The notes under the pieces are model-generated. The model worked only from the letters and a program-made list of their open reading frames with translations. It was not told the DNA's origin and did not search any database. This document shows, piece by piece, positions 3,756 through 14,827 of a stretch of DNA of 14,946 nucleotides (positions within the stretch are counted from its first letter, which is position 1; every line of letters starts with the position of its first letter). Position numbers and translations under genes: made by a program. Source of the stretch: Candidatus Fermentibacterota bacterium (GTDB lineage Bacteria; JAFGKV01); assembly GCA_030620115.1 (NCBI GenBank), contig JAUXFG010000094.1, forward strand, positions 1 to 14,946, read 5' to 3'.

Positions 3756-4175
3756 ATGAACTATCGAGGAATGACTCTCATCGAAGTATCGGTGGCCACG
3801 GTAATCGGCACATTGCTCCTTCTCCCTGTCGCCCTCACCACGACTCGATGGGCTCGCGAGGCGGAGCAACAGAAGCTCAGGCTCGAAGGCACTGTTCTCT
3901 TGAGCATGGCTCTTGATGCGCTGGAGCATCTCGATCTACATGATGGCCAGGGGAGAAGCGAGATACAATTTGGAGATCACCCATGGTCGTTGAGCTGGAG
4001 CATGGAGAGCCCGATGCTGCCTTCCGAACTCACTATCGAGGATCGAATGGATCTGGCGTTATTGGTGGTGGTATTACGATTCGAACAACATGATCTCTCG
4101 GTCCAGGGCTCCAGACTCATCCGTGAGAATCTGAACCAACCGGGTAAATTGGTTCTCCGAGTGTCCACACAGTGA
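3756..4175 (+). CDS. Type IV prepilin-like minor pseudopilin (GspH/I/J type)
   Basis: 139 aa from the ATG at 3756. Sequence upstream is open back to 3696 but would put 20 residues before a perfect short leader. The leader is MNYRG, cleaved before MTLIEVSVATVIGTLLLLPVAL, giving Gly -1, Met +1 and Glu +5 as prepilin peptidase requires. The rest (AREAEQQKLRLEGTVLLSMALDALEHLDL, later WSLSWSMES) resembles minor pseudopilins of the GspI/GspJ or PilV type. It lies 41 nt after the GspK/PilX-like gene and before another prepilin, a usual minor-pilin block. Minor pilins prime fibre assembly. Which minor pilin it equals cannot be decided here. Confidence 0.75.
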   Translation: MNYRGMTLIEVSVATVIGTLLLLPVALTTTRWAREAEQQKLRLEGTVLLSMALDALEHLDLHDGQGRSEIQFGDHPWSLSWSMESPMLPSELTIEDRMDLALLVVVLRFEQHDLSVQGSRLIRENLNQPGKLVLRVSTQ

Positions 4176-4191
4176 GCATCGTTGACCGGGC

Positions 4192-4239
4192 ATCCGACCT
4201 CCTCCCCCTTTGCAAAGGGGGATTAAGGGGGATTTCTCC
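4192..4239 (+). repeat. Dispersed repeat A, copy 2
   Basis: Second copy of repeat A (see 13-60). The core at 4204-4221 is a perfect 18-bp palindrome, C5-T3-GC-A3-G5, followed by GATTAAGGGGGATTT. It sits between the two prepilin genes and interrupts an otherwise compact operon. Unlike the copy at 12088 it has no clear IS66-like ends nearby. Confidence 0.8.
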
Positions 4240-4267
4240 GATATCCATTACCCCATTACCCCAATTG

Positions 4268-4287
4268 CGCCTGCCTGTCGGCAGGCG
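4268..4287. repeat. Short perfect hairpin between prepilin genes
   Basis: CGCCTGCC and GGCAGGCG form an 8-bp stem around the tetraloop TGTC, 38 nt before the start of the second prepilin gene. No T-run follows, so a Rho-independent terminator is unlikely. It is more likely a small dispersed palindromic repeat, but an RNA hairpin in the operon transcript is also possible. Confidence 0.5.
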
Positions 4288-4324
4288 GATAGCGAAGCGG
4301 ATCCAAGTTGGGAACTCTGAACCC

Positions 4325-4837
4325 ATGAACGCCTACACATCGCGCTTCCTCGGCAGTGATCACCGCCGGTTGAATCGCAGAGGCTATACGCTTCTTGAGA
4401 TCGCCATGGTCTTGCCCGTGGCTGGTATGCTGATCGTTGGCGGGGTTTTGGGTCTTCACAGCTTTGTCCGGTTCGTGAAGCCCGAGACCATGCAGATACC
4501 GTGCCAAGTTCTGTCGCTGATCAAGATTCGGCGGGATCTGACCCAGTGTTTCGCCGTATCCGAGGAATCAGGGTCTGCTTCCCGGATTCTTGATTTTTGG
4601 GGCCAAGAAGTCGATCCTTGCGCACGAATGCCTGCCGGCTGTGACGCCTCCATTGCTGTGGTGAGCGATGTGGACAGAGTACTTGATCTCGCCTTGCCGG
4701 AGGCTATCGGGAGATCGGTGGTCTTCTTCGGGGTGGCCGTTTCCGGAAGGGAGTCTAATCTGGGGTTCCCGGTTGCTATCGTTTCTCTTGATGAGATGAT
4801 CTTTTTGGAAAGATATGGTCAAGAAACTCTCTATTGA
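4325..4837 (+). CDS. Type IV prepilin-like minor pseudopilin
   Basis: 170 aa from the ATG at 4325. The frame is open back to a GTG at 4172, but that stretch is repeat A plus a hairpin and is unlikely to be translated as part of the protein. A 20-residue basic leader ends in NRRG, followed by YTLLEIAMVLPVAGMLIVGGVLGLHSF, with Gly -1 and Glu +5 intact. The remaining sequence contains two cysteines close together (DPCARMPAGCD) that could form a disulfide loop. It is probably a minor pilin of the same fibre as its neighbours. The 3' end overlaps the GspE gene by 23 nt. Confidence 0.75.
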   Translation: MNAYTSRFLGSDHRRLNRRGYTLLEIAMVLPVAGMLIVGGVLGLHSFVRFVKPETMQIPCQVLSLIKIRRDLTQCFAVSEESGSASRILDFWGQEVDPCARMPAGCDASIAVVSDVDRVLDLALPEAIGRSVVFFGVAVSGRESNLGFPVAIVSLDEMIFLERYGQETLY

Positions 4838-6284
4838 AGATCGGCGAGCCCTCGTTCCTGAGGATGTAGCTGCTCGACTTCGATGCATTCCCCTGGCATA
4901 TGTGGATGACGCCGTGTATCTCGCTACCGACCATCCAGATACGTGGAATGCCCTCCAGGACGCACAGCGGTACATAGGCAAGCCGGTGGTGGCAATCCCT
5001 GTTTCCCCGGAAAGGCTTGGATGGCACGCGGCAAGAACATACGCAGAAGGGGTGCTGACATCCCCTGCGTGGCAGCGCCATGCGGTGGTGGGGCCAGCCA
5101 TCAGTGATGAGACGGACGAAACGGAGCGGGCCGCACGAGATAAGCCGGTTGTCCGAATGGTGGATGAGATGTTCGCGGAAGCGATCGGCCTCAGAGCAAG
5201 CGACATCCATCTGGAGCCGTGTCTCTCCGGGTTGCGTGTTCGTTTTCGTTTGGATGGCCTTCTTGTGACGCGTGCAACTCTACCGCAGGGGTTGGCCGGT
5301 CCCGTGGTGGGCCGAATCAAGATACTGGCCCGTCTTAACCTGGCTGAACGCCGGCTTCCTCAGGATGGACGGCTGACGGTATCACTGCCGAATCGGGCAA
5401 TTGACCTCCGTGTCTCGACGTTTCCCACACTCCATGGCGAGAAGGTGGTCTTGCGCTTGCTGGATCGTGATCCAGTGCTTCTTGACCCGGCGAGTTTGGG
5501 CATGCCCGATGAGGTGCTTGGGAGATTCCTCCACGCCTCACGGTTGCCCCGAGGCATGGTGTTGGTCACAGGCCCCACAGGAAGTGGGAAAACCACGACT
5601 CTATACTCCGCGCTTGCGACGCGGAACAGCCCAGATCTCAATATCATGACCATTGAAGATCCAATTGAGTATGCGATAGACGGGATCAATCAAACGCAGG
5701 TGCAGGAAGAGATCGGGTTCAAGTTTGGTACGGCATTGCGGCACGCGCTGCGTCAGGATCCAGATATCATCATGGTGGGGGAGATAAGAGACAAGGAAAC
5801 CGCCGAAATAGCATTGCGCGCCGCTCTCACGGGGCATCTTGTGTTCAGCACTCTCCATACCAATGACAGCGCCAGCGCCCTGGCGCGTCTCGTGGACATC
5901 GGCGTTGAAGCATATCTGCTGGCCTCATGTCTTGATCTCGTATTGGGACAGCGACTGGTCAGGAAATTGTGTCCTCACTGTCGTCTCGAGCATTGGCGTC
6001 AGCCCAACGACGCTCACATCCCATCGATAGTGGGTGACACATGGCATGAAGCCGCGGGATGTGATCAGTGCGCCAGCACGGGATATCGAGGAAGGCGCGG
6101 AGTATTTGAGTGCTTGGTGGTTGATGATTCATTGCGGGAAATCCTTGTCTCCAAACCCACGGCCTCGGAGATACGAACATGGATGACGACGAACGGATTC
6201 AGCGTGTTGGAGGAGGCGGGATGGGACCTTGTTTCCACAGGCATCACTTCGCCTCAGGAATATCTTAGGATAATGGGCAGCTAA
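4815..6284 (+). CDS. gspE: GspE/PilB-type assembly ATPase
   Basis: 489 aa cytoplasmic secretion ATPase that powers pilus or pseudopilus assembly. Motifs are complete: Walker A GPTGSGKTT (253-261), Asp box TIEDPIEY (279-286), Walker B region DPDIIMVGEIRD (315-326), and His box TGHLVFSTLHTND (339-351). The zinc-binding tetracysteine of GspE/PilB is also present (CPHC at 386-389 and CDQC at 416-419). An N1E-like region (LVPEDVAARLRCIPLAYVDDAVYLATDHP, 13-41) precedes the N2E and RecA-like domains. The length is near the usual T2SS GspE size and shorter than most PilB because the N-terminal domain is reduced. The tetracysteine argues for an assembly rather than a PilT-type retraction ATPase. The start at 4815 has GGAAAG just upstream and lies inside the end of the prepilin gene. 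Confidence 0.95.
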   Translation: MVKKLSIEDRRALVPEDVAARLRCIPLAYVDDAVYLATDHPDTWNALQDAQRYIGKPVVAIPVSPERLGWHAARTYAEGVLTSPAWQRHAVVGPAISDETDETERAARDKPVVRMVDEMFAEAIGLRASDIHLEPCLSGLRVRFRLDGLLVTRATLPQGLAGPVVGRIKILARLNLAERRLPQDGRLTVSLPNRAIDLRVSTFPTLHGEKVVLRLLDRDPVLLDPASLGMPDEVLGRFLHASRLPRGMVLVTGPTGSGKTTTLYSALATRNSPDLNIMTIEDPIEYAIDGINQTQVQEEIGFKFGTALRHALRQDPDIIMVGEIRDKETAEIALRAALTGHLVFSTLHTNDSASALARLVDIGVEAYLLASCLDLVLGQRLVRKLCPHCRLEHWRQPNDAHIPSIVGDTWHEAAGCDQCASTGYRGRRGVFECLVVDDSLREILVSKPTASEIRTWMTTNGFSVLEEAGWDLVSTGITSPQEYLRIMGS

Positions 6285-6295
6285 CCCGGATATGT

Positions 6296-6386
6296 CACCA
6301 CGCGTCTCGCACGGTTGTCACATCATACGCCTGATAGCGCAATTCGGTGGCGCAGGTCAGTGGCGCAGGCGTCCCTGCCTGCGATC
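6296..6386 (+). repeat. Dispersed repeat B, copy 1
   Basis: Shares with 10174-10253 a CACCACGCGYCTCG start and a GTGGCGCAGGTCAGTGGCGC block, followed by GCAGGCGTCCCTGCCTGYGAT. It shares with 14875-14918 the word GCCTGATAGCGCA. GCAGGC and GCCTGC (6365-6382) form a 6-bp stem around GTCCCT. AGTGGCGCAGG is itself repeated in tandem within the element. Confidence 0.75.
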
Positions 6387-6423
6387 TCGAGAACCATCCG
6401 CTCATCACCTTCCCCCCCAAAAA

Positions 6424-6512
6424 CTTCGCTTGCCACGCCGACTGGTCACGGCGCATCCGCCAGGAGAAGACGGAAGTCATCCGACGAAGGCGGGTCCCGA
6501 ACTTCCCCCATC
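6424..6512 (+). repeat. Dispersed repeat C, copy 1 (with internal insert)
   Basis: CTTCGCTTGCCACGCCGA at 6424-6441 and a 40-bp block beginning GAAGTCATCCGACGAAGG at 6473-6512 are contiguous in the second copy at 8127-8184. Here they are separated by about 31 bp, so one copy carries an insertion or the other a deletion. Confidence 0.75.
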
Positions 6513-6523
6513 TTCTTCCCAAA

Positions 6524-6574
6524 AACATCATCGGGAGTCCCGCCGACGGCGGGATCGGGAGCTTTGTCGAATCC
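6524..6574 (+). repeat. Repeat D tract (12-nt period, degenerate)
   Basis: AACATCATCGGG, AG, a GC-rich hairpin, then ATCGGG, AGCTTTGTCG, AATCC. It matches the 12-nt units seen more regularly at 10084 and 11054 but is interrupted by the hairpin at 6539-6553. Confidence 0.55.
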
Positions 6575-6670
6575 GACATTCTCCCCTCACCAGCTCATCT
6601 CCCCACGATCCCTGTCATTCTGAGCGACCGTATGGAGCGAAGAATCTCTCCTGCATCCTTCCTCTATCAT

Positions 6671-6714
6671 CTGCACGCTGCATGCTGAATACTGCCCGCT
6701 TCCCCAATCCCATC
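6671..6714 (+). repeat. Dispersed repeat F, copy 1
   Basis: A block with CTGCATGCTG, an ACTGCCCGCTTCCCCAATCC core and a CATC end. The same order, with small differences, recurs at 10296-10334. It lies in non-coding spacer in both places. Confidence 0.65.
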
Positions 6715-6836
6715 CCCTCTCTCCTAAGTCATTGCGAGGAGCAGTGCGACGCGGCAATCTCGTTCATCCTCTCTGCTTTGCGTCCTTTGCGCCTTTGCGT
6801 GAGGGGAATCCCCATCCCCCAATTCGAGCTCTAACA

Positions 6837-8051
6837 ATGGGCATCTATATCTACACCGCCAGGAAGATCGGGGGGGCGGTTTCCCGGGGGGTTGTCAGAG
6901 CAGCCACAAAGGAACACGCAAGGAATGGACTGCAGGGGCGGGGATTGGCGGTTACTTCACTGGCATACATTGCCCTTTCCCCCGCCAGGTGGTTCTCACT
7001 CAAGAGGCGATTTTCTGCTCGCGAGCTATCCCTCGCTGTGCGGCAGCTCGCCTCCTTGCTCTCTGCGGACATATCAGTGGTCGCCGCCCTTCGAGTCCTC
7101 CACCGCCAGCAACGTTCGGGGAGCTTCCGTTCGGGGCTAAGAAACGTCAGCGAGGAAGTGGCGGCGGGCATGGATCTCTCCGAGGCATTCCGCAACCGAA
7201 CGGCGGAATTCGGGCCGCTTTTGCCTGCCGTCACCAAGGCAGGTGAGACAGCCGGGATGTTGCCCGATCTGCTCCGCTTGGCCGCAGCGAATATGATGGC
7301 TGAGGATCGACTGAGAAGGCGAGTCAGGGGCGCGCTCATCTATCCGATGTTTGTGTTTTTAGCAGTGGCTGTTGCGGTGGTGTTGTTCAGTGTCTACGTA
7401 GTACCAACCTTTGCCGAGGTATTCGAGGAGGCGGAGCAATCCTTGCCGGCCATCACCCGACTTGTCATGCAGTTCGGCGTATTCGTCAGCTCATTCTGGC
7501 CCGTACTCCTTCTTCTCCCACTCCTGGTCTTCCTGATTGCGAGAATATGGAAACATGGGCGAGAGCGTTGGAACCAGATCCGTAGTCAACTTGTGCTTCG
7601 GCTTCCCGTTTGGGGCAGAGTAGAACAGAATGTTGCCATGGCGGAATTCACGAGGTCATTGGGCACACTTGTCTCATGCAATGTCCAATTGCTGCATGCG
7701 CTCGAGCTTTCTGCGGGGATCATCCATAACCCAGAGATACGCGGGCAGATCTTGAGTATCAGGGTCTCCCTTGCCAGTGGCGGAAGCATGTCGGAACTGC
7801 TGTCCGGCCTTTCCCATATTGATCCGTTTGTTGTGGAGACCGTGGAAACAGGGGAGAGAACTGGGAGTCTCGGCACCTTGCTGCTGCAAGCCGCTGAGTT
7901 CTACGAGAGTGAAGTGGAGATCGGCATGCAAGCATTGACTTCGTTGCTGGAGCCGGTCATAATCTCGGTAGTTGCAGTCCTAGTAACAATCGTGGCCTTC
8001 GCCATGTATCTTCCATTGTTCGACCTTGTCCGAACCGCAAGAGTCGGCTAG
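6837..8051 (+). CDS. gspF: GspF/PilC-type inner-membrane platform protein
   Basis: 404 aa from the ATG at 6837. The frame runs back to 6732, but that part is repeat sequence and the family begins with a short strand exactly like MGIYIYTARKIGG. Two T2SS F domains are seen at about 62-184 and 267-389, each with the helical pattern of the family: FSARELSLAVRQLASLLSADISVVAAL and MAEFTRSLGTLVSCNVQLLHALE. The ETAG/ETGERTGSL signatures are at 137-140 and 337-345. Three membrane segments lie near 171-191, 220-236 and 374-392. This is the usual GspF size. It is the membrane platform on which GspE acts, and in most clusters it directly follows the ATPase gene. Here about 550 bp of repeats separates the two. 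No clear Shine-Dalgarno is visible. Confidence 0.93.
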   Translation: MGIYIYTARKIGGAVSRGVVRAATKEHARNGLQGRGLAVTSLAYIALSPARWFSLKRRFSARELSLAVRQLASLLSADISVVAALRVLHRQQRSGSFRSGLRNVSEEVAAGMDLSEAFRNRTAEFGPLLPAVTKAGETAGMLPDLLRLAAANMMAEDRLRRRVRGALIYPMFVFLAVAVAVVLFSVYVVPTFAEVFEEAEQSLPAITRLVMQFGVFVSSFWPVLLLLPLLVFLIARIWKHGRERWNQIRSQLVLRLPVWGRVEQNVAMAEFTRSLGTLVSCNVQLLHALELSAGIIHNPEIRGQILSIRVSLASGGSMSELLSGLSHIDPFVVETVETGERTGSLGTLLLQAAEFYESEVEIGMQALTSLLEPVIISVVAVLVTIVAFAMYLPLFDLVRTARVG

Positions 8052-8268: not shown

Positions 8269-10050
8269 ATGAAATTCCCCTACGGCATCTGTGATTTCTA
8301 TCATATCATCACGGAGGGCTATTTCTACGTCGACCGCACGGACCGGATTCGCCTGATCGAAGAAGCAGGGAAGCATCTGCTTCTCGTGCGGCCTCGCCGT
8401 TTCGGCAAAAGCCTCTTGCTCTCGATGTTAGAGAACTACTACGATGTCGCGAAAGCTGACGGGTTCAACACCCTGTTTGGGCATCTATCCATTGGCCGGA
8501 ACCCCACGAGTCGGCACAATCAGTATTTCGTGCTCAAGCTCGATTTCTCTGCGGTCAGTTCACTTGGGGATGCCCACGAGATCCAACAGGCGCTGAACGA
8601 TCACATCAACGGCTGCATTGAGCAGTTCATCGCTCACTATCACAACCTCCTGGAATACGACATCGAAATCAACGAAACGAATGCCTTGCGGTCATTTCAA
8701 TCTGTCTTGGCTGCTATCCAGCAAACCCCCTACCAGCTCTACCTGTTGATCGATGAGTACGACAACTTTGGCAATGAAGTCATGATGGGGAGTGGATCGG
8801 TGAGCAGACAGCGTTATGAGACCTTGCTGTATGGGGAAGGAGTCCTCAAAGCCCTGTTCAAGGCGATAAAGTCGGCCAGTGCAGGGCTCGGATTGGACCG
8901 GGTATTCATTACCGGAGTCTCGCCAGTGGTGCTGAGTGACGTCACCAGTGGGTACAATATAGCCAAGAATATCTACCTGGATCCCGAATTCAATGATATC
9001 TGTGGTTTCTGGGAATCGGAGATAGAAGAAACTCTGAACCAGATCGTCGGAGCGTGTGATATGCCTCTGGAAAAGGCAACCGAGGCATTGGCCATGATGC
9101 GGATCTTCTACAATGGCTATTGTTTTGGATACGACGCAGCCGGTTATGTGTACAATCCGACGTTGGTCCTTTATTTCCTGGAGCATCTTCAAAGGCGCTG
9201 TCAATATCCTCGCAATTTGCTGGACAGCAATTTGGCAATGGATCGCGATAAGATCACGTACATCTCCAGGCTGCCTGGCGGAGAACGGATCATTCTCGAT
9301 GCGATAGATGAGGAGACCTCTTTGCGCATTGCGCAATTGGCAGATCGATTTGGGGTTGAGGATATGCTGGATGCCTCCAAGGACGACACGTTTATGATCT
9401 CATTACTCTACTACTTCGGAGTGTTGACCTTTGGCGGCGATACGGAATTGGGGAAGCTGATCTTGAAGATACCCAATCTTGTGGTGCGCAAGCTGTATGT
9501 TGAGCGCATTCAAGAGATGTTGCTGCCTGACCTTGGGGACAAGAATGAGGCTTTGCGAGTGGGCGAGGCCTTGTTCAGCACGGGTGATATGCAGCCTCTG
9601 TGCGATTTCATAGAGGAACGCTACTTCAAGGTGTTTGACAATCGGGACTACCGGTGGACAAATGAGCTGACGGTGAAGACTGCCTTTTTGACCCTGCTCT
9701 TCAATGACACCTTCTACATCATGGATTCTGAGACCGAGTTGGAGCGCGGGTATGCCGATTTGACAATGATATTGCGGCCTGACATGCGACGATATCCTTT
9801 GCTGGACATACTGATGGAATTCAAATACATCGGGCTGAAGGATTTGGGGCTAAGTGGGGCAGAGGTGAAGCAGATGGGTCGAGAGGAGCTGAAAGCCTTG
9901 GCCCCCATCCAGAAGAAGTTGGCGGAGTCGAAGGCCAATCTTCGCGGCTATCGGCAAGCCCTGGAGGTCAAATACGGAAATGAGCTGCGCTTGCATAGCT
10001 ACATCGTGGTCGCATTAGGTTTTGACCGTTTGGTCTGGGAAGCAGTATAG
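8269..10050 (+). CDS. AAA-ATPase / PD-(D/E)XK nuclease family protein (PF09820-DUF1703 type)
   Basis: 593 aa. The N-terminus (FPYGICDFYHIITEGYFYVDRTDRI) and the Walker A RPRRFGKS (41-48) are the signature of the AAA-ATPase-like family that is fused to a C-terminal PD-(D/E)XK nuclease. The Walker B is LLIDEYD (159-165), then FITGVSPV (213-220) and YNPTLVLYFL (295-304). The nuclease core is visible as GYADL with Asp497 and MEFKY with Glu517 and Lys519, followed by the helix of the fold, so both catalytic parts look intact. Length is typical. The family is common, often multicopy, in anaerobes and uncultured bacteria; its biological role is not settled. It sits between gspF and a major pilin gene, with repeats on both sides, and has no pilus-related feature, so it is probably a cargo insertion. 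An ACGAGGA ribosome site supports the start. Confidence 0.93.
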   Translation: MKFPYGICDFYHIITEGYFYVDRTDRIRLIEEAGKHLLLVRPRRFGKSLLLSMLENYYDVAKADGFNTLFGHLSIGRNPTSRHNQYFVLKLDFSAVSSLGDAHEIQQALNDHINGCIEQFIAHYHNLLEYDIEINETNALRSFQSVLAAIQQTPYQLYLLIDEYDNFGNEVMMGSGSVSRQRYETLLYGEGVLKALFKAIKSASAGLGLDRVFITGVSPVVLSDVTSGYNIAKNIYLDPEFNDICGFWESEIEETLNQIVGACDMPLEKATEALAMMRIFYNGYCFGYDAAGYVYNPTLVLYFLEHLQRRCQYPRNLLDSNLAMDRDKITYISRLPGGERIILDAIDEETSLRIAQLADRFGVEDMLDASKDDTFMISLLYYFGVLTFGGDTELGKLILKIPNLVVRKLYVERIQEMLLPDLGDKNEALRVGEALFSTGDMQPLCDFIEERYFKVFDNRDYRWTNELTVKTAFLTLLFNDTFYIMDSETELERGYADLTMILRPDMRRYPLLDILMEFKYIGLKDLGLSGAEVKQMGREELKALAPIQKKLAESKANLRGYRQALEVKYGNELRLHSYIVVALGFDRLVWEAV

Positions 10051-11012: not shown

Positions 11013-11032
11013 GGGCACGGCATGCCGTGCCC
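11013..11032. repeat. Perfect 20-bp palindrome GGGCACGGCA/TGCCGTGCCC
   Basis: A perfect palindrome inside the word GTAGGGGCACGGCATGCC, which I recognise as part of a widely dispersed bacterial repeat. The ATG at 11022 lies exactly in its centre, which makes that start codon of the following frame doubtful. Confidence 0.65.
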
Positions 11033-12068
11033 TCCTCCTTCCCGCCTCCCAAGAACTTCGTCGGGAGCCTCATCGGGAGCTTCGTCGCGAATCCGCTGTT
11101 CGGCGTGCCGCACCCGCATCCCTCTCATCGTGTTGACTGGCTTCTTGCTCTTCTCGTCGGGAGAAACCTCCCCTGCCGAGACCACGAATCAATCCCCACA
11201 AGCTGCCATTGTCTCTGCTGATACGCTTGCCACAAATGAACGGATCTGTCTGTTTGGTGCAGTGGGATCCGATGGCCTGGCACTAATCGGAATAGACCGC
11301 ACATTGTACCTCTTGGGCCCCGACCAAGGCTTCTGGCTCCCGGACGGGCGATTTGGTCGGTTGTTTCGCACACCAGCCGGGTCCTTGATGGTGATTGCCG
11401 GGCGCGATAGCATATGCGTCTCCACATGCGAGGGTAGCGCCCAGGGATGGTCGTGGGCATCCCCGTTCCAGAATCCACAGCAGGGGCATGCACCAACTCC
11501 AGACCTATCGAGGCAGATAAAGCGAGAGAGCCAGAAGGAACGTGCTGTGGTCGAGAGTGGCCGTGAGCAGGCCTTCGAAAGGCAAACGGAATCACCTCGC
11601 CCTTCAGAGGAAGAAGATGCGGCGCCTCCTGGGCAAACCAAGGTTGCGCCGCCAAGTACGAGCATGAGGATTGTTCCGCGTCCGCCGGTTATTCAGATCT
11701 TGGGGATCAAACATACCGCCATGGCCACGCTGTGGTACGAGGGAGATCAGCATATACAGGGTGTTCATCTCCTGCTTGAGCCAACATCCTCTGCGGCTGC
11801 GCTCCTTTCAGTAGAAACCGATCCCTCGGTTCCGGAACCTGTTTCACTCACCTACGCACACTCTCCTCACGGTGGATTACAGATTCGTCTGGTTTCAGAT
11901 GGACCTCTCACGGAATCGCCACAGTTGGGAGCGTTGTTCAATCTGCTTCTGGAAAGCCGAGAGCCGGGGAGCGTCCTGATCCGTATGAAAAAGATCACGG
12001 TAAGTACCGGCCAGGATCTGTGGAGCCTTCCTGATGACAGTCTCACGGTCTACATAGAAAACGAGTAA
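11022..12068 (+). CDS. Exported protein with a cohesin-like C-terminal domain
   Basis: Up to 348 aa. A hydrophobic export signal (RTRIPLIVLTGFLLFSSGETSPAE, about 31-53) is followed by a small beta-rich domain at 75-136 (LFGAVGSDGLALIGIDRTLYLLG...), which could be GspC/PilP-like. A charged linker (160-215) follows, then a C-terminal domain (about 230-346) with the strand order of cohesin domains: HIQGVHLLLEPTSSAAALLSVE, then GLQIRLVSDGPL, then GALFNLLLESREPGSVLIRMKKITV. Such domains occur in proteins tied to T2SS/T4P secretins, but no secretin part is present. The start is uncertain: the ATG at 11022 is in a palindrome, and residues 11-22 (RTSSGASSGASS) are encoded by repeat D. The next in-frame starts are GTG 11130 and TTG 11133, which would lose the basic n-region. 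The stop TAA comes from a MITE end. Confidence 0.6.
   Translation: MPCPPPSRLPRTSSGASSGASSRIRCSACRTRIPLIVLTGFLLFSSGETSPAETTNQSPQAAIVSADTLATNERICLFGAVGSDGLALIGIDRTLYLLGPDQGFWLPDGRFGRLFRTPAGSLMVIAGRDSICVSTCEGSAQGWSWASPFQNPQQGHAPTPDLSRQIKRESQKERAVVESGREQAFERQTESPRPSEEEDAAPPGQTKVAPPSTSMRIVPRPPVIQILGIKHTAMATLWYEGDQHIQGVHLLLEPTSSAAALLSVETDPSVPEPVSLTYAHSPHGGLQIRLVSDGPLTESPQLGALFNLLLESREPGSVLIRMKKITVSTGQDLWSLPDDSLTVYIENE
11054..11101 (+). repeat. Repeat D tract, four consecutive 12-nt units, inside an open frame
   Basis: AACTTCGTCGGG (11054-11065), AGCCTCATCGGG (11066-11077), AGCTTCGTCGCG (11078-11089), AATCCGCTGTTC (11090-11101). This is the most regular tract after 10084. It overlaps the first codons of the cohesin-like gene if the 11022 start is used. 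Confidence 0.7.
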
Positions 12069-12164
12069 TTTCTCAATAGGTCCGTGCATCCGACCTTCTC
12101 CCCCTTTGAAAAGGGGGATCAAGGGGGATTTTTCCCATGCTGCGCGGAGTTATTCAGAGCCTAC
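12065..12164. mobile_element. MITE-like element with IS66-like ends, carrying repeat A
   Basis: The left end GTAATTTCTCAATAGG (12065-12080, continuing to 12088) matches the IS66 left end at 12173 at 19 of 24 positions. The right end (12142-12164, ending TTCAGAGCCTAC) matches the IS66 right end at 18 of 23. The two ends are inverted repeats of each other at 18 of 26 positions by hand count. The flanks GAAAACGA (12057-12064) and GAAAATGT (12165-12172) agree at 6 of 8 bases, as expected of an aged 8-bp target duplication. The element is 100 bp with no coding capacity; its interior is repeat A copy 3. Its first bases form the stop codon of the upstream gene. Confidence 0.6.
12088..12136 (+). repeat. 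Dispersed repeat A, copy 3
   Basis: Third copy of repeat A. The core at 12100-12117 is C5-T3-GA-A3-G5, followed by GATCAAGGGGGATTT. It forms the interior of the MITE-like element 12065-12164. Confidence 0.8.
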
Positions 12165-12172
12165 GAAAATGT
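12165..12172 (+). repeat. Left target-site duplication of the IS66 element (GAAAATGT)
   Basis: GAAAATGT directly precedes the IS left end and is identical to 14820-14827. Eight base pairs is the duplication length known for the IS66 family. Confidence 0.85.
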
Positions 12173-12196
12173 GTAACTTCTCAATAACCCCGTGCG
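12173..12196 (+). repeat. IS66 left terminal inverted repeat
   Basis: 24 bp, pairs with 14796-14819 with a single mismatch (position 17, C against T). It is followed by CCCCGTGCGGGG, a small palindrome at 12189-12200 inside the element. Confidence 0.88.
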
Positions 12197-12249
12197 GGGA
12201 CTGATTTTTAGACTGGACTCGGGCACATCCCTGTGTTATTTTCCCGTTC

Positions 12250-13131
12250 ATGGAACGAGAAATGATAATCCAGGGACGTCTGATCACTGACCGAGACGTC
12301 AACCATATCCGGGATCTCATAGCGTCAAATCCTGATTGGCGTAGGACACGGCTTTCGCAAGAGTTGTGTAGGAATTGGGGTTGGTTGGCGAATAATGGTC
12401 GAATCAAGGACATGGCTGCGCGGGCACTGTTGCGCAAGCTGGACGCGAGAGGTCTGATCGCACTTCCTCCACCTATTTGTTCTGCTAATAACACTCTTCG
12501 TCACCGCTCTCCTGTCTCCATCTCGGTGGACGAAACACCGATTCGGGATCCTCTATGCGAGCTGCGTCCGATCCAGGTGGCGCCTGTGGAAGATAAGACA
12601 CAGGCCCGCCTTTTCCGAGGACTACTGCACGCACATCATTACCTGAGCTACCGGGGACCGGTGGGGGAGAACGTCAAGTATCTGGTCTTTGATTGCCATG
12701 CTCGTCCTTTGGGGTGTCTGCTGTTCGGAGCAGCGGCCTGGAGGGTGGCAAGCCGTGATATTTTCATTGGTTGGGATCCACAGGCACGTGAGCGTGAATT
12801 GCCTTTGATAGCGAATAACATGCGCTTCTTGCTGCTTCCTTGGGTCCGTGTTCCCCACCTCGCCAGCCATGTCCTGGGTCAGGTTGCGCGCCGCATCAGG
12901 AGAGACTGGGAGGTCGCATATGGACATCCCGTGGTACTCTTAGAAACCTTTGTTGAGAAGAGCCGGTTTGCGGGGACGTGCTACCAGGCAGCGAACTGGA
13001 TCTTGGTGGGTGAAACCACCGGTCGAACCCGCAATGGTCACAATCACGACGTAACTGTACCTATCAAATCGGTCTATCTCTATCCACTGACTCGGCATTT
13101 CCGGACCCTTCTGTCAGATGCAGAGAACTAG
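12250..13131 (+). CDS. DruA-like protein (DUF4338), IS66-borne
   Basis: 293 aa. Residues 115-280 are a clear DUF4338/DruA domain: LLHAHHYLSYRGPVGENVKYLVFD (125-148), GCLLFGAAAWRVASRDIFIGW (155-175), NNMRFLLLPWVRVPHLASHVLG (189-210), LLETFVEKSRFAGTCYQAANW (230-250) and PIKSVYLYPL (271-280). The first 75 residues form a small helical, probably DNA-binding domain (RRTRLSQELCRNWGWLANNGRIKDMAARALLRKL). DruA is named from the Druantia anti-phage system, but no DruB-E gene is present. Here the gene is inside an IS, 6 nt before the transposase start, so a transposon-related role is more likely. Starts at 12250 or 12262 (better spacing from GGAACGAGA). The biochemical activity is unknown to me. It ends with TAG. 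Confidence 0.92.
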   Translation: MEREMIIQGRLITDRDVNHIRDLIASNPDWRRTRLSQELCRNWGWLANNGRIKDMAARALLRKLDARGLIALPPPICSANNTLRHRSPVSISVDETPIRDPLCELRPIQVAPVEDKTQARLFRGLLHAHHYLSYRGPVGENVKYLVFDCHARPLGCLLFGAAAWRVASRDIFIGWDPQARERELPLIANNMRFLLLPWVRVPHLASHVLGQVARRIRRDWEVAYGHPVVLLETFVEKSRFAGTCYQAANWILVGETTGRTRNGHNHDVTVPIKSVYLYPLTRHFRTLLSDAEN

Positions 13132-13137
13132 TTCCCG

Positions 13138-14760
13138 ATGACGAACACAGAAAACGATCGTTCTACAAAACAGGCGCCTTCCTTTCCCTTCATAACCCCA
13201 GAGGAACAGTCGCCTACCGTTTAGGCTCTCCTGGTCATCATTGGACAGCTTAATGAACGTATCCGTGTCTTGGAAGAGGAACTAGCCCGCGTGAAGAAGC
13301 TCCCAAAGCGCCCCAAGATTAGGCCAAGCGTTCTGGAAAAGGGAAAACATAAGGATGACGATGCATCTGGGAGCACATCAGGGGGTTCGGATTCATCATC
13401 GAGCGGAAAACGCCCCGGATCGAAGAAGCGCAAGAAGCAGCTCACCATCCATGAGACCAAGGTCCTCAAGCCCGAAGATATACCTCCAGGCTCGAGGTTC
13501 CTGGGCTACCAGGATTACCTTGTCCAGGGCCTGAGGATCTCTCAGCACAACATCCGGTATCGTCGAGCACGCTACCTTACCACGGATGGCATTTATCTGA
13601 CAGCTGGCCTTCCCGAAGAGGTCCAGGGCACCCACTTTGATCCCACTCTGAGAACCTACATCCTTTACCAATACCACCACCAACGGGTGACCCAGCCCCT
13701 GATCCTACAGCAGCTTACAGAATGGGGTTTCGACATCTCCAAAGGCGAGTTGAGCCTGATCATCTCGGAAGAAAACAACAGCTTCCACGACGAAAAGAAC
13801 GCCCTGCTTCCGGCAGGTCTTGCCTCCGCGGGCTACCTGAACGTTGACGATACCGGCGCCCGCCACGCCGGCAAAAACGGCTACTGTACCCATGTGGGCA
13901 ACGAACGGTTCGCTTACTTCAAAAGCACCGATTCCAAAAGCCGCATCAACTTCCTGGAGATATTGCGCGGCCATCACACCGACTACGTGATCAACGACCA
14001 CGCACTTGAGTACATGAAGGTCCAAAAACTGCCCCAAAGCCCACGAGAGCTTTTGAGCCAGGGGGAGAAGATCTTAGCCGACTCCTCTCAGTGGCAGAAC
14101 CATCTCACTGCTTTGCGAGTGATCCAACAACGGCATATCCGTATCGCCACCGAAGGGGCATTGATTGGCAGTCTTGTCCACCACGGCTTCCCGCCGGAAC
14201 TGGTTATCGTGAGTGATGATGCGGGCCAATTCGATGTGTTCCTTCATGCGCTGTGCTGGATCCATGCCGAGCGCACCTTGCAGCGTATCCTCCCCCTTAC
14301 TGACGTTCACGCCAAAGCCGTGGATTGGGCACGCGAACAGATCTGGCAGCTCTACAAAGATCTAAAAGCATACAAGCAAGAACCTACGGAAGGCAGAAAA
14401 CACGAGATCAGCAAACGCTTCGATGAGATCTTCCTGACAAAGACCGAGTTCCAGACACTCAATCTGGCACTCAACAGGCTCCATAAGAACAAGGATGAAC
14501 TACTCCTGGTCCTGGAACGACCTGACATCCCCCTTCATAACAATCTCAGCGAACGCGATATCAGAGAATACGTCATCAAACGAAGAATCAGCGGCAGCAC
14601 TCGGAGCGATGAAGGACGACGATCCCGGGATACCTTCGCAAGCCTCAAAAAGACTGCCAAGAAACTGGGAATCGCCTTCTGGGACTACCTGCTCGATCGA
14701 GTCTCTTTGAAAAACCAGATCCCTCCCTTGCCTCAGCTCGTAGCCAAAGCCCCTCCATAA
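13138..14760 (+). CDS. IS66-family DDE transposase with in-frame amber at codon 29
   Basis: The natural frame starts at ATG 13138, 6 nt after the DruA-like stop. It reads MTNTENDRSTKQAPS... to TAG at 13222-13224, then continues ALLVIIGQLNERIRVLEEEL, which is the N-terminal leucine-zipper helix normal for IS66 transposases. The intact part is therefore preceded by its own 28 codons, so the TAG is an internal stop. Without readthrough, the next plausible start is TTG 13270 (496 aa). Numbered from 13138, the DDE core is VDDTGARH (Asp237/238), SDDAGQF (Asp360/361) with CWIHAER (373-379), and NNLSERDIR with Glu472. The C-terminal RSDEGRRSRDTFASLKKTAKKLG is also typical. The catalytic domain appears complete. 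A Ser/Asp/Gly-rich stretch lies at 74-92. It could be a recent pseudogene, a suppressed amber, or use internal initiation. Confidence 0.9.
13222..13224 (+). other. In-frame TAG interrupting the transposase
   Basis: It lies between GTT (13219) and GCT (13225) in the transposase frame. A single C-to-T change from CAG would produce it. TAG also ends gspF, the nuclease gene and the DruA-like gene in this window, so it is an ordinary stop in this genome. Confidence 0.85.
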
Positions 14761-14795
14761 CCCACTCCACTATACACCCTGCCTCACCTTGCCAT

Positions 14796-14819
14796 CGCAC
14801 GGAGTTATTGAGAAGTTAC
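14796..14819 (-). repeat. IS66 right terminal inverted repeat
   Basis: Reverse complement of the left end at 23 of 24 positions; its outer tip is GTTAC on the + strand. Confidence 0.88.
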
Positions 14820-14827
14820 GAAAATGT
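14820..14827 (+). repeat. Right target-site duplication of the IS66 element (GAAAATGT)
   Basis: Identical to 12165-12172. Confidence 0.85.

Follow-up and report, generated by a model that had tools for sequence, protein, structure and literature searches.

DUF4338, a Mom-like GNAT protein, as a recurrent partner of DDE transposases, seen from a two-gene IS66-family element

The window analysed here, a stretch of 14,946 nucleotides of contig JAUXFG010000094.1 from a Candidatus Fermentibacterota bacterium (assembly GCA_030620115.1), carries an IS66-family element of 2,647 bp at 12173-14819, in which a DUF4338 gene precedes the transposase frame. The features of the element and of its left neighbour, in positions of the window, are the following.

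12065-12164, plus strand: 100-bp MITE abutting the element, with ends GTAATTTCTCAATAGGTCCGTGC and GCGCGGAGTTATTCAGAGCCTAC (genome matches, end similarity)
12165-12172, no strand: left target duplication GAAAATGT (8-bp sequence match)
12173-12196, plus strand: left terminal inverted repeat (23/24 against the right end)
12250-13131, plus strand: DUF4338 (Pfam DruA) gene, 293 aa, with a predicted GNAT fold like that of phage Mu Mom (Pfam, model, structure and profile comparison)
12289-12468, plus strand: N-terminal three-helix HTH-like domain, residues 14-73, putatively DNA-binding (model; HTH matches weak)
12568-13089, plus strand: predicted GNAT/Mom-like domain, residues 107-280 (model, structure and profile alignment)
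12637-12642, plus strand: H130-Y131, aligned to Mom H48-Y49 (alignment)
12865-12867, plus strand: S206, invariant, aligned to the serine of the inactive Mom variant S124A, S114 in the present numbering (alignment)
12982-12996, plus strand: Y245-x-A-A-N249, counterpart of Mom YxAxN (alignment)
13138-14760, plus strand: IS66 transposase frame broken by TAG at 13222-13224 and open from 13225 on, with TTG 13270 as first start (Pfam, translation)
14796-14819, minus strand: right terminal inverted repeat (match to the left end)
14820-14827, no strand: right target duplication GAAAATGT (8-bp sequence match)

A sequence-only reading of this DNA had described a fully bounded element, and its account of the layout holds. 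The terminal repeats at 12173-12196 and 14796-14819 start with GTAA and are identical at 23 of 24 positions, and the 8-bp duplication GAAAATGT on either side is perfect; a random exact 8-mer at two fixed places has a chance of about 1 in 65,000. The two genes lie on the same strand in the order DUF4338, IS66 transposase, with 6 nt between the DUF4338 stop and the transposase ATG at 13138. The ORF list of 12173-14819 contains neither tnpA nor tnpB, nor any gene other than these two. With its PF03050-type DDE transposase, GTAA-starting ends and 8-bp target duplication the element belongs to IS66, and not to the full three-gene type with tnpA, tnpB and tnpC. Single-transposase subgroups of IS66 exist, so the absent genes exclude the full type only. 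The window element shares its transposase family, ends and duplication length with those subgroups and differs from them in the DUF4338 gene directly 5' of the transposase and in a stop codon within the transposase frame.

This stop codon had been overlooked. The transposase frame matches PF03050 (DDE_Tnp_IS66) above the cut-off (E 1.1e-18) and also NF033517 with E 5.8e-38, yet under that model's cut-off. Read from ATG 13138, it carries an in-frame TAG at 13222-13224, codon 29, within an N-terminal stretch that can be aligned to the nearest relative, L013 (SPTV*ALLVIIGQL versus TPTVKLLLAIIEQ). Past the TAG the frame stays open, from TTG 13270 to 14760. A genome search found this transposase as a single copy in its own genome, and with the TAG and no second copy the element may be dead, or the transposase may start later. 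From its sequence, the window copy is probably now inactive owing to the stop codon.

Also overlooked was the nature of the left flank, which is a MITE whose ends are like those of the element. It is flanked by GAAAACGA at 12057-12064 and by GAAAATGT at 12165-12172, and has 41 matches in the genome including the window copy (for example L238, L241 and L244). Eight of nine further copies inspected measure 99-101 bp, and three of the nine have perfect 8-bp duplications (CTGATCTG, GACACATG, AGATTCTT). Since many MITE copies exist, some of them with duplications, transposition of elements with such ends has been frequent in the genome. The very abundant family is built of GTAACTTCTCAATAAGTCCGTGC ends, a hairpin core CCCCCTTT...AAAGGGGG and 8-bp duplications. 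The stop codon of the ORF at 11022-12068 is a TAA that arises where the MITE begins on its left (GAAAACGA|GTAA), and to judge by this junction the gene may have been truncated, or had its end rewritten, by the insertion. A second, partial MITE copy is found at 4186-4242, within ORF 4172-4837 of a pilus/secretion-like gene cluster, and a 593-aa ORF of AAA-ATPase-like appearance lies between secretion genes at 8269-10050.

The window ORF matches PF14236 (DruA/DUF4338) with E 1.6e-33 and 116.6 bits against a cut-off of 27, and three further DUF4338 genes are present in the same genome. There, DUF4338 is fused to Tn5-like IS4 transposases at two loci (L010, L011) and at another (L012) it is linked in frame with a transposase of the IS701 type (DDE_5). 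In a relative of the same family, DUF4338 lies immediately 5' of IS66 transposases, at one locus (L009) in the order tnpB-DUF4338-tnpC, the tnpB-like gene being identified by eye. A search of GTDB genomes with three IS66-linked DUF4338 proteins yielded 565 relatives, of which the best 80, spanning many phyla of bacteria and including some archaeal bins, were analysed. Among these best 80 of 565, an identifiable transposase is next to or fused with DUF4338 in 76. The arrangement of the window, DUF4338 5' of IS66, recurs in 73 of the 80, where the transposase or what remains of it follows immediately, either on the strand of DUF4338 or in its frame, and the other identifiable partners are one Tn5-like, one DUF4277/IS1634-type and one other IS4-type transposase. 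Three more of the best 80 have a probable transposase-like gene with no Pfam match, putatively ISKra4-like, whose inclusion raises the association to 79/80, and in one the contig ends 22 nt past the DUF4338 gene. A cluster of partners (L030, L047, L075, L123, L132, L140) was likewise read as putatively ISKra4-like, the scanned member having no Pfam match. Where a long downstream ORF was called, the gap lies between -20 and +60 nt in 34 of 49 cases, 14 of which are 4-nt overlaps. Fusions of DUF4338 were found with IS66, Tn5-like, ISAs1-like and IS701-type transposases.

In even genome draws, centres included, PF14236 occurs in 13 of about 200 Pseudomonadota and 23 of 199 Bacillota genomes. The largest group again consists of copies linked or fused to transposases (IS66, Tn5-like, ISAs1-like and others), and the remaining copies are degenerate fragments, contig-end cases and a distinct Druantia-type set.

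The mobility of such elements can be followed where they occur in several copies. In Alicyclobacillus sp. ALC3, an intact 2,494-bp DUF4338-IS66 element with ends GTTACTACTCAGGTACCC, which spans 4925-7418 at L024, is present in eight near-identical copies, seven of them with perfect 8-bp duplications of five different sequences. Among the 23 matches in the Verrucomicrobiales bin G006 are five copies of a 3,475-bp IS66 element with tnpB, a 2,556-bp element flanked by 9-bp duplications, and one fusion each of the Tn5-like and ISAs1-like kind. Desulfoferrobacter suflitae carries a 1.93-kb ISAs1-like element with 10-bp duplications; both Verrucomicrobiales and Desulfoferrobacter have several multicopy element types. 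Multicopy elements with perfect duplications show that the DUF4338 module moves. Single bounded IS66 elements were found at L023, L042, L049 and L060 as well. Most insertion sites of the Alicyclobacillus element (L024, L026, L172-L175) are palindromes that resemble each other, roughly TAGYG-N10-CRCTA, and may reflect a target preference.

The comparison of the two proteins across elements adds an evolutionary view. Protein distances of DUF4338 and of the IS66 transposases are correlated (Mantel r 0.75, against a maximum of 0.17 in 2,000 permutations), and the two proteins thus co-diverge. Within this distance set, pairs of close DruA and far transposase proteins that involve L029 and L062 probably reflect a wrong reading frame, and those among L031, L033, L034 and L008 look real. 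In close pairs (L079/L080, L085/L092, L052/L057) the dN/dS of DUF4338 is 0.10 to 0.26, well below 1, and by this measure the gene is under purifying selection. The DUF4338 gene of L031 is close to those of L033 and L034, with very different IS66 transposases beside them. In the tree, a Tn5-linked DUF4338 copy groups with an IS66-linked one and an IS4-linked copy is nested in an IS66 clade, each with 99% support. In these comparisons DUF4338 behaves as an exchangeable cassette between transposase families.

Searches that start from the transposase complete this picture. With an Acidobacteriota transposase as query, DUF4338 accompanies 3/3 relatives at 59-61% identity and 1/3 at 41-50%, and most distant IS66 elements from this search are without it; the window transposase, used as query in Verrucomicrobiota, retrieved for the most part weak matches to distant IS66 elements. 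The module is optional, because many distant IS66 elements do without it. The sequence-only reading had proposed that homologous elements usually lacking the gene, or carrying others in its place, would mark it as a chance passenger. Starting from DUF4338 this is not what is observed; starting from the transposase it applies in part, since close relatives keep the gene and many distant IS66 elements lack it. This absence is what speaks for a gene caught by accident in one IS66 copy, an explanation that is scarcely credible in view of the 79/80 association (best 80 of 565, the three probable transposases counted), the in-operon position, the fusions, selection and congruence; the linkage counts already contradict it. 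Rather than a chance passenger, DUF4338 is an exchangeable partner under selection that recurs with several DDE transposase families and is often fused to them. The earlier idea that DUF4338 belongs with transposition is thus borne out by near-universal linkage or fusion, with IS66 as well as unrelated families, inside elements with proven ends.

More specific roles had been considered for DUF4338, among them end processing as a nuclease. An AlphaFold2 model of the window protein built from 63 sequences (mean pLDDT 90.6) does not support this role: it shows an HTH-like N-terminal region at residues 14-73, followed by a GNAT domain at about 107-280, with phage Mu Mom as the nearest structure. 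GNATs fill the top rows of the fold searches, and a nuclease identity was rejected. Foldseek gave Mom (8bv8) as the best PDB match with E 4e-6 and 18% identity, and VIA-align likewise ranked Mom first (Z 14.9, rmsd 3.6, 169 residues, 17% identity), other GNATs reaching Z 13.2 and below at mostly 7-13% identity, with the runner-up at Z 13.2 and 7%. A published analysis already termed DUF4338 a GNAT domain (PMC10853773), and Mom is known to acylate adenine N6 in DNA (PMC7824862).

Profile comparisons point in the same direction. The DUF4338 family profile aligned to 15 Mom sequences with a probability of 94-97% in hhalign (E 1.8e-7 as a one-against-one test). In a Pfam scan of 63 DUF4338 members, 16 match Mom (PF25680) at E <= 0.01, the best at 1.5e-4, and no member matches any other GNAT Pfam family. 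Two fused forms match PF25680 with E 2e-4 and 2.6e-5, and the window protein has no match at E 0.01; the single-protein matches inspected lie below the Pfam curated cut-off, which makes DUF4338 a relative of Mom and not a filed member. The HY pair, the serine replaced in Mom's inactive crystal form (Ser/Thr) and YxAxN, by which the Mom family is recognised, are common to Mom and DUF4338 and near-invariant in the alignments. Counted against the Mom reading, besides the Pfam scores under the cut-off, are the position of Mom D139, which is taken by either D or E in DruA, and R192, which pairs with Mom R101 under MAFFT and not under hhalign. A direct search of the DruA profile against PDB sequences gave nothing meaningful, so the link to Mom rests on structure, profile-profile comparison and Pfam. 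On these grounds of model and sequence, homology to phage Mu Mom is well supported. The N-terminal domain alone gave nothing significant against the PDB (Foldseek E >= 0.45; VIA best Z 5.7), with weak HTH-type rows only, and the ISAs1-like fused and IS701-linked forms keep the GNAT part without this domain.

What such a protein would do for a transposon can be approached by analogy. Because Mom is a DNA modifier that likewise resides on a transposing element, and because DUF4338 is repeatedly fused to transposases, we propose that it is a Mom-like acyltransferase that modifies nucleic acids in concert with DDE transposases, a reading to which we give even chances. As in Mom, acyl-CoA would be used to modify a base (adenine in the case of Mom), and the DNA modified would be the element's own, at its ends, or the target, with DUF4338 acting together with the transposase. 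The gain might lie in protection against host restriction, for intermediates of transposition or for copies that have just arrived, or the mark might time or steer transposition. The window copy would likely be silenced by its transposase stop, in a genome that retains many MITEs with matching ends. Against a role in modification, the same fold does not mean the same substrate, as GNATs also modify proteins and small molecules, and IS66 relatives without DUF4338 show that transposition does not need it.

The same domain architecture would also suit a non-catalytic DNA-binding partner, whose HTH-like domain and GNAT scaffold bind ends or targets and aid transposase choice or assembly. The repeated fusions and the similar palindromic targets of the Alicyclobacillus copies are compatible with such a partner; a pure scaffold, however, has no need of Mom-type motif residues that stay nearly invariant over deep divergence, and the forms that keep the GNAT part without the HTH-like domain also make this role unlikely. 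Alternatively, DUF4338 might acylate a protein, either a factor of the host or the transposase itself. Amines of proteins or small molecules are the substrates of most characterised GNATs, and fusion would place the enzyme beside the transposase. As the nearest structure and the sole Pfam GNAT family matched are those of the DNA-modifying Mom, and the unrelated partner transposases offer no obvious common protein substrate, we regard a protein target as quite unlikely.

The Pfam name raises a further alternative, namely that the gene is Druantia-like defence or counter-defence cargo kept for the benefit of the host against phages. Druantia DruA shares the Pfam family and a GNAT-like core with the window protein. 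However, with PADLOC DruA models the window protein reaches only E 2.9e-4, and Druantia-type proteins about 1e-90 or better. The latter lack most of the motif residues shared with Mom and form their own clade (support 100) beside the transposon type and not within it; the split between the two has a weak support of 40. Recruitment by Druantia from mobile elements, as suggested in the sequence-only reading, is one possible direction of descent. The element holds no other defence gene, and with this PADLOC match, the separate clade and no gene beyond the transposase it is not a Druantia system, which combines a Druantia-type DruA with a helicase and further Dru genes. Repeated fusion to transposases would be unexpected of a cargo gene, and in seven cases of Druantia DruA examined no transposase was found beside it. 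We therefore consider defence cargo quite unlikely, and the DruA label is misleading for the window protein as far as sequence comparison can tell. Many proteins owe the name Druantia DruA or DUF4338 to a Pfam label; those adjacent to transposases form a Mom-like group of their own, which does not belong in a count of defence genes. Long Druantia-type DruA proteins of 1,077 and about 1,297 aa were seen at L129 and L136, respectively, the former extending into an AAA/STAND-like NTPase that weakly resembles SspF/DndF, possibly a defence architecture.

In a broader and more tentative reading, somewhat short of an even chance, DUF4338 would be a widespread Mom-type enzyme of DNA hypermodification, encoded by transposons and shared across at least five DDE transposase families, DNA marking would be a general accessory strategy of insertion sequences and not one of phage Mu only, and Druantia DruA would have branched off from this stock and diverged. 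Some transposons may then chemically mark DNA as part of moving or surviving. If DUF4338 modifies DNA, insertion sequences gain a chemical tool so far known mainly from phages, and a single element of two genes offers a direct test of why genes other than transposases are found on transposons.

Compared with known systems, the putative enzyme resembles phage Mu Mom (PDB 8bv8, PF25680) in its GNAT fold, in HY, serine and YxAxN, and in riding a transposing genetic element; it differs in its low identity, its additional N-terminal domain and its position beside or within IS-type DDE transposases. The ISAs1-like, Tn5-like IS4 and IS701-type fusions of several genomes carry the same module on a DDE transposase, whereas their transposase families differ from that of the window element and their duplications are 9-10 bp where measured. 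In the literature searched we found nothing linking DUF4338 with transposons, and an earlier listing in ISfinder or InterPro is possible. The architecture exists in records, where public annotation names a DUF4338-containing protein ISAs1 transposase, and seems undescribed in the literature. On plasmids, relatives of the window protein were found in 2 of 72,556, both of Candidatus Thiodictyon syntrophicum, and one of these is already annotated as an ISAs1 family transposase.
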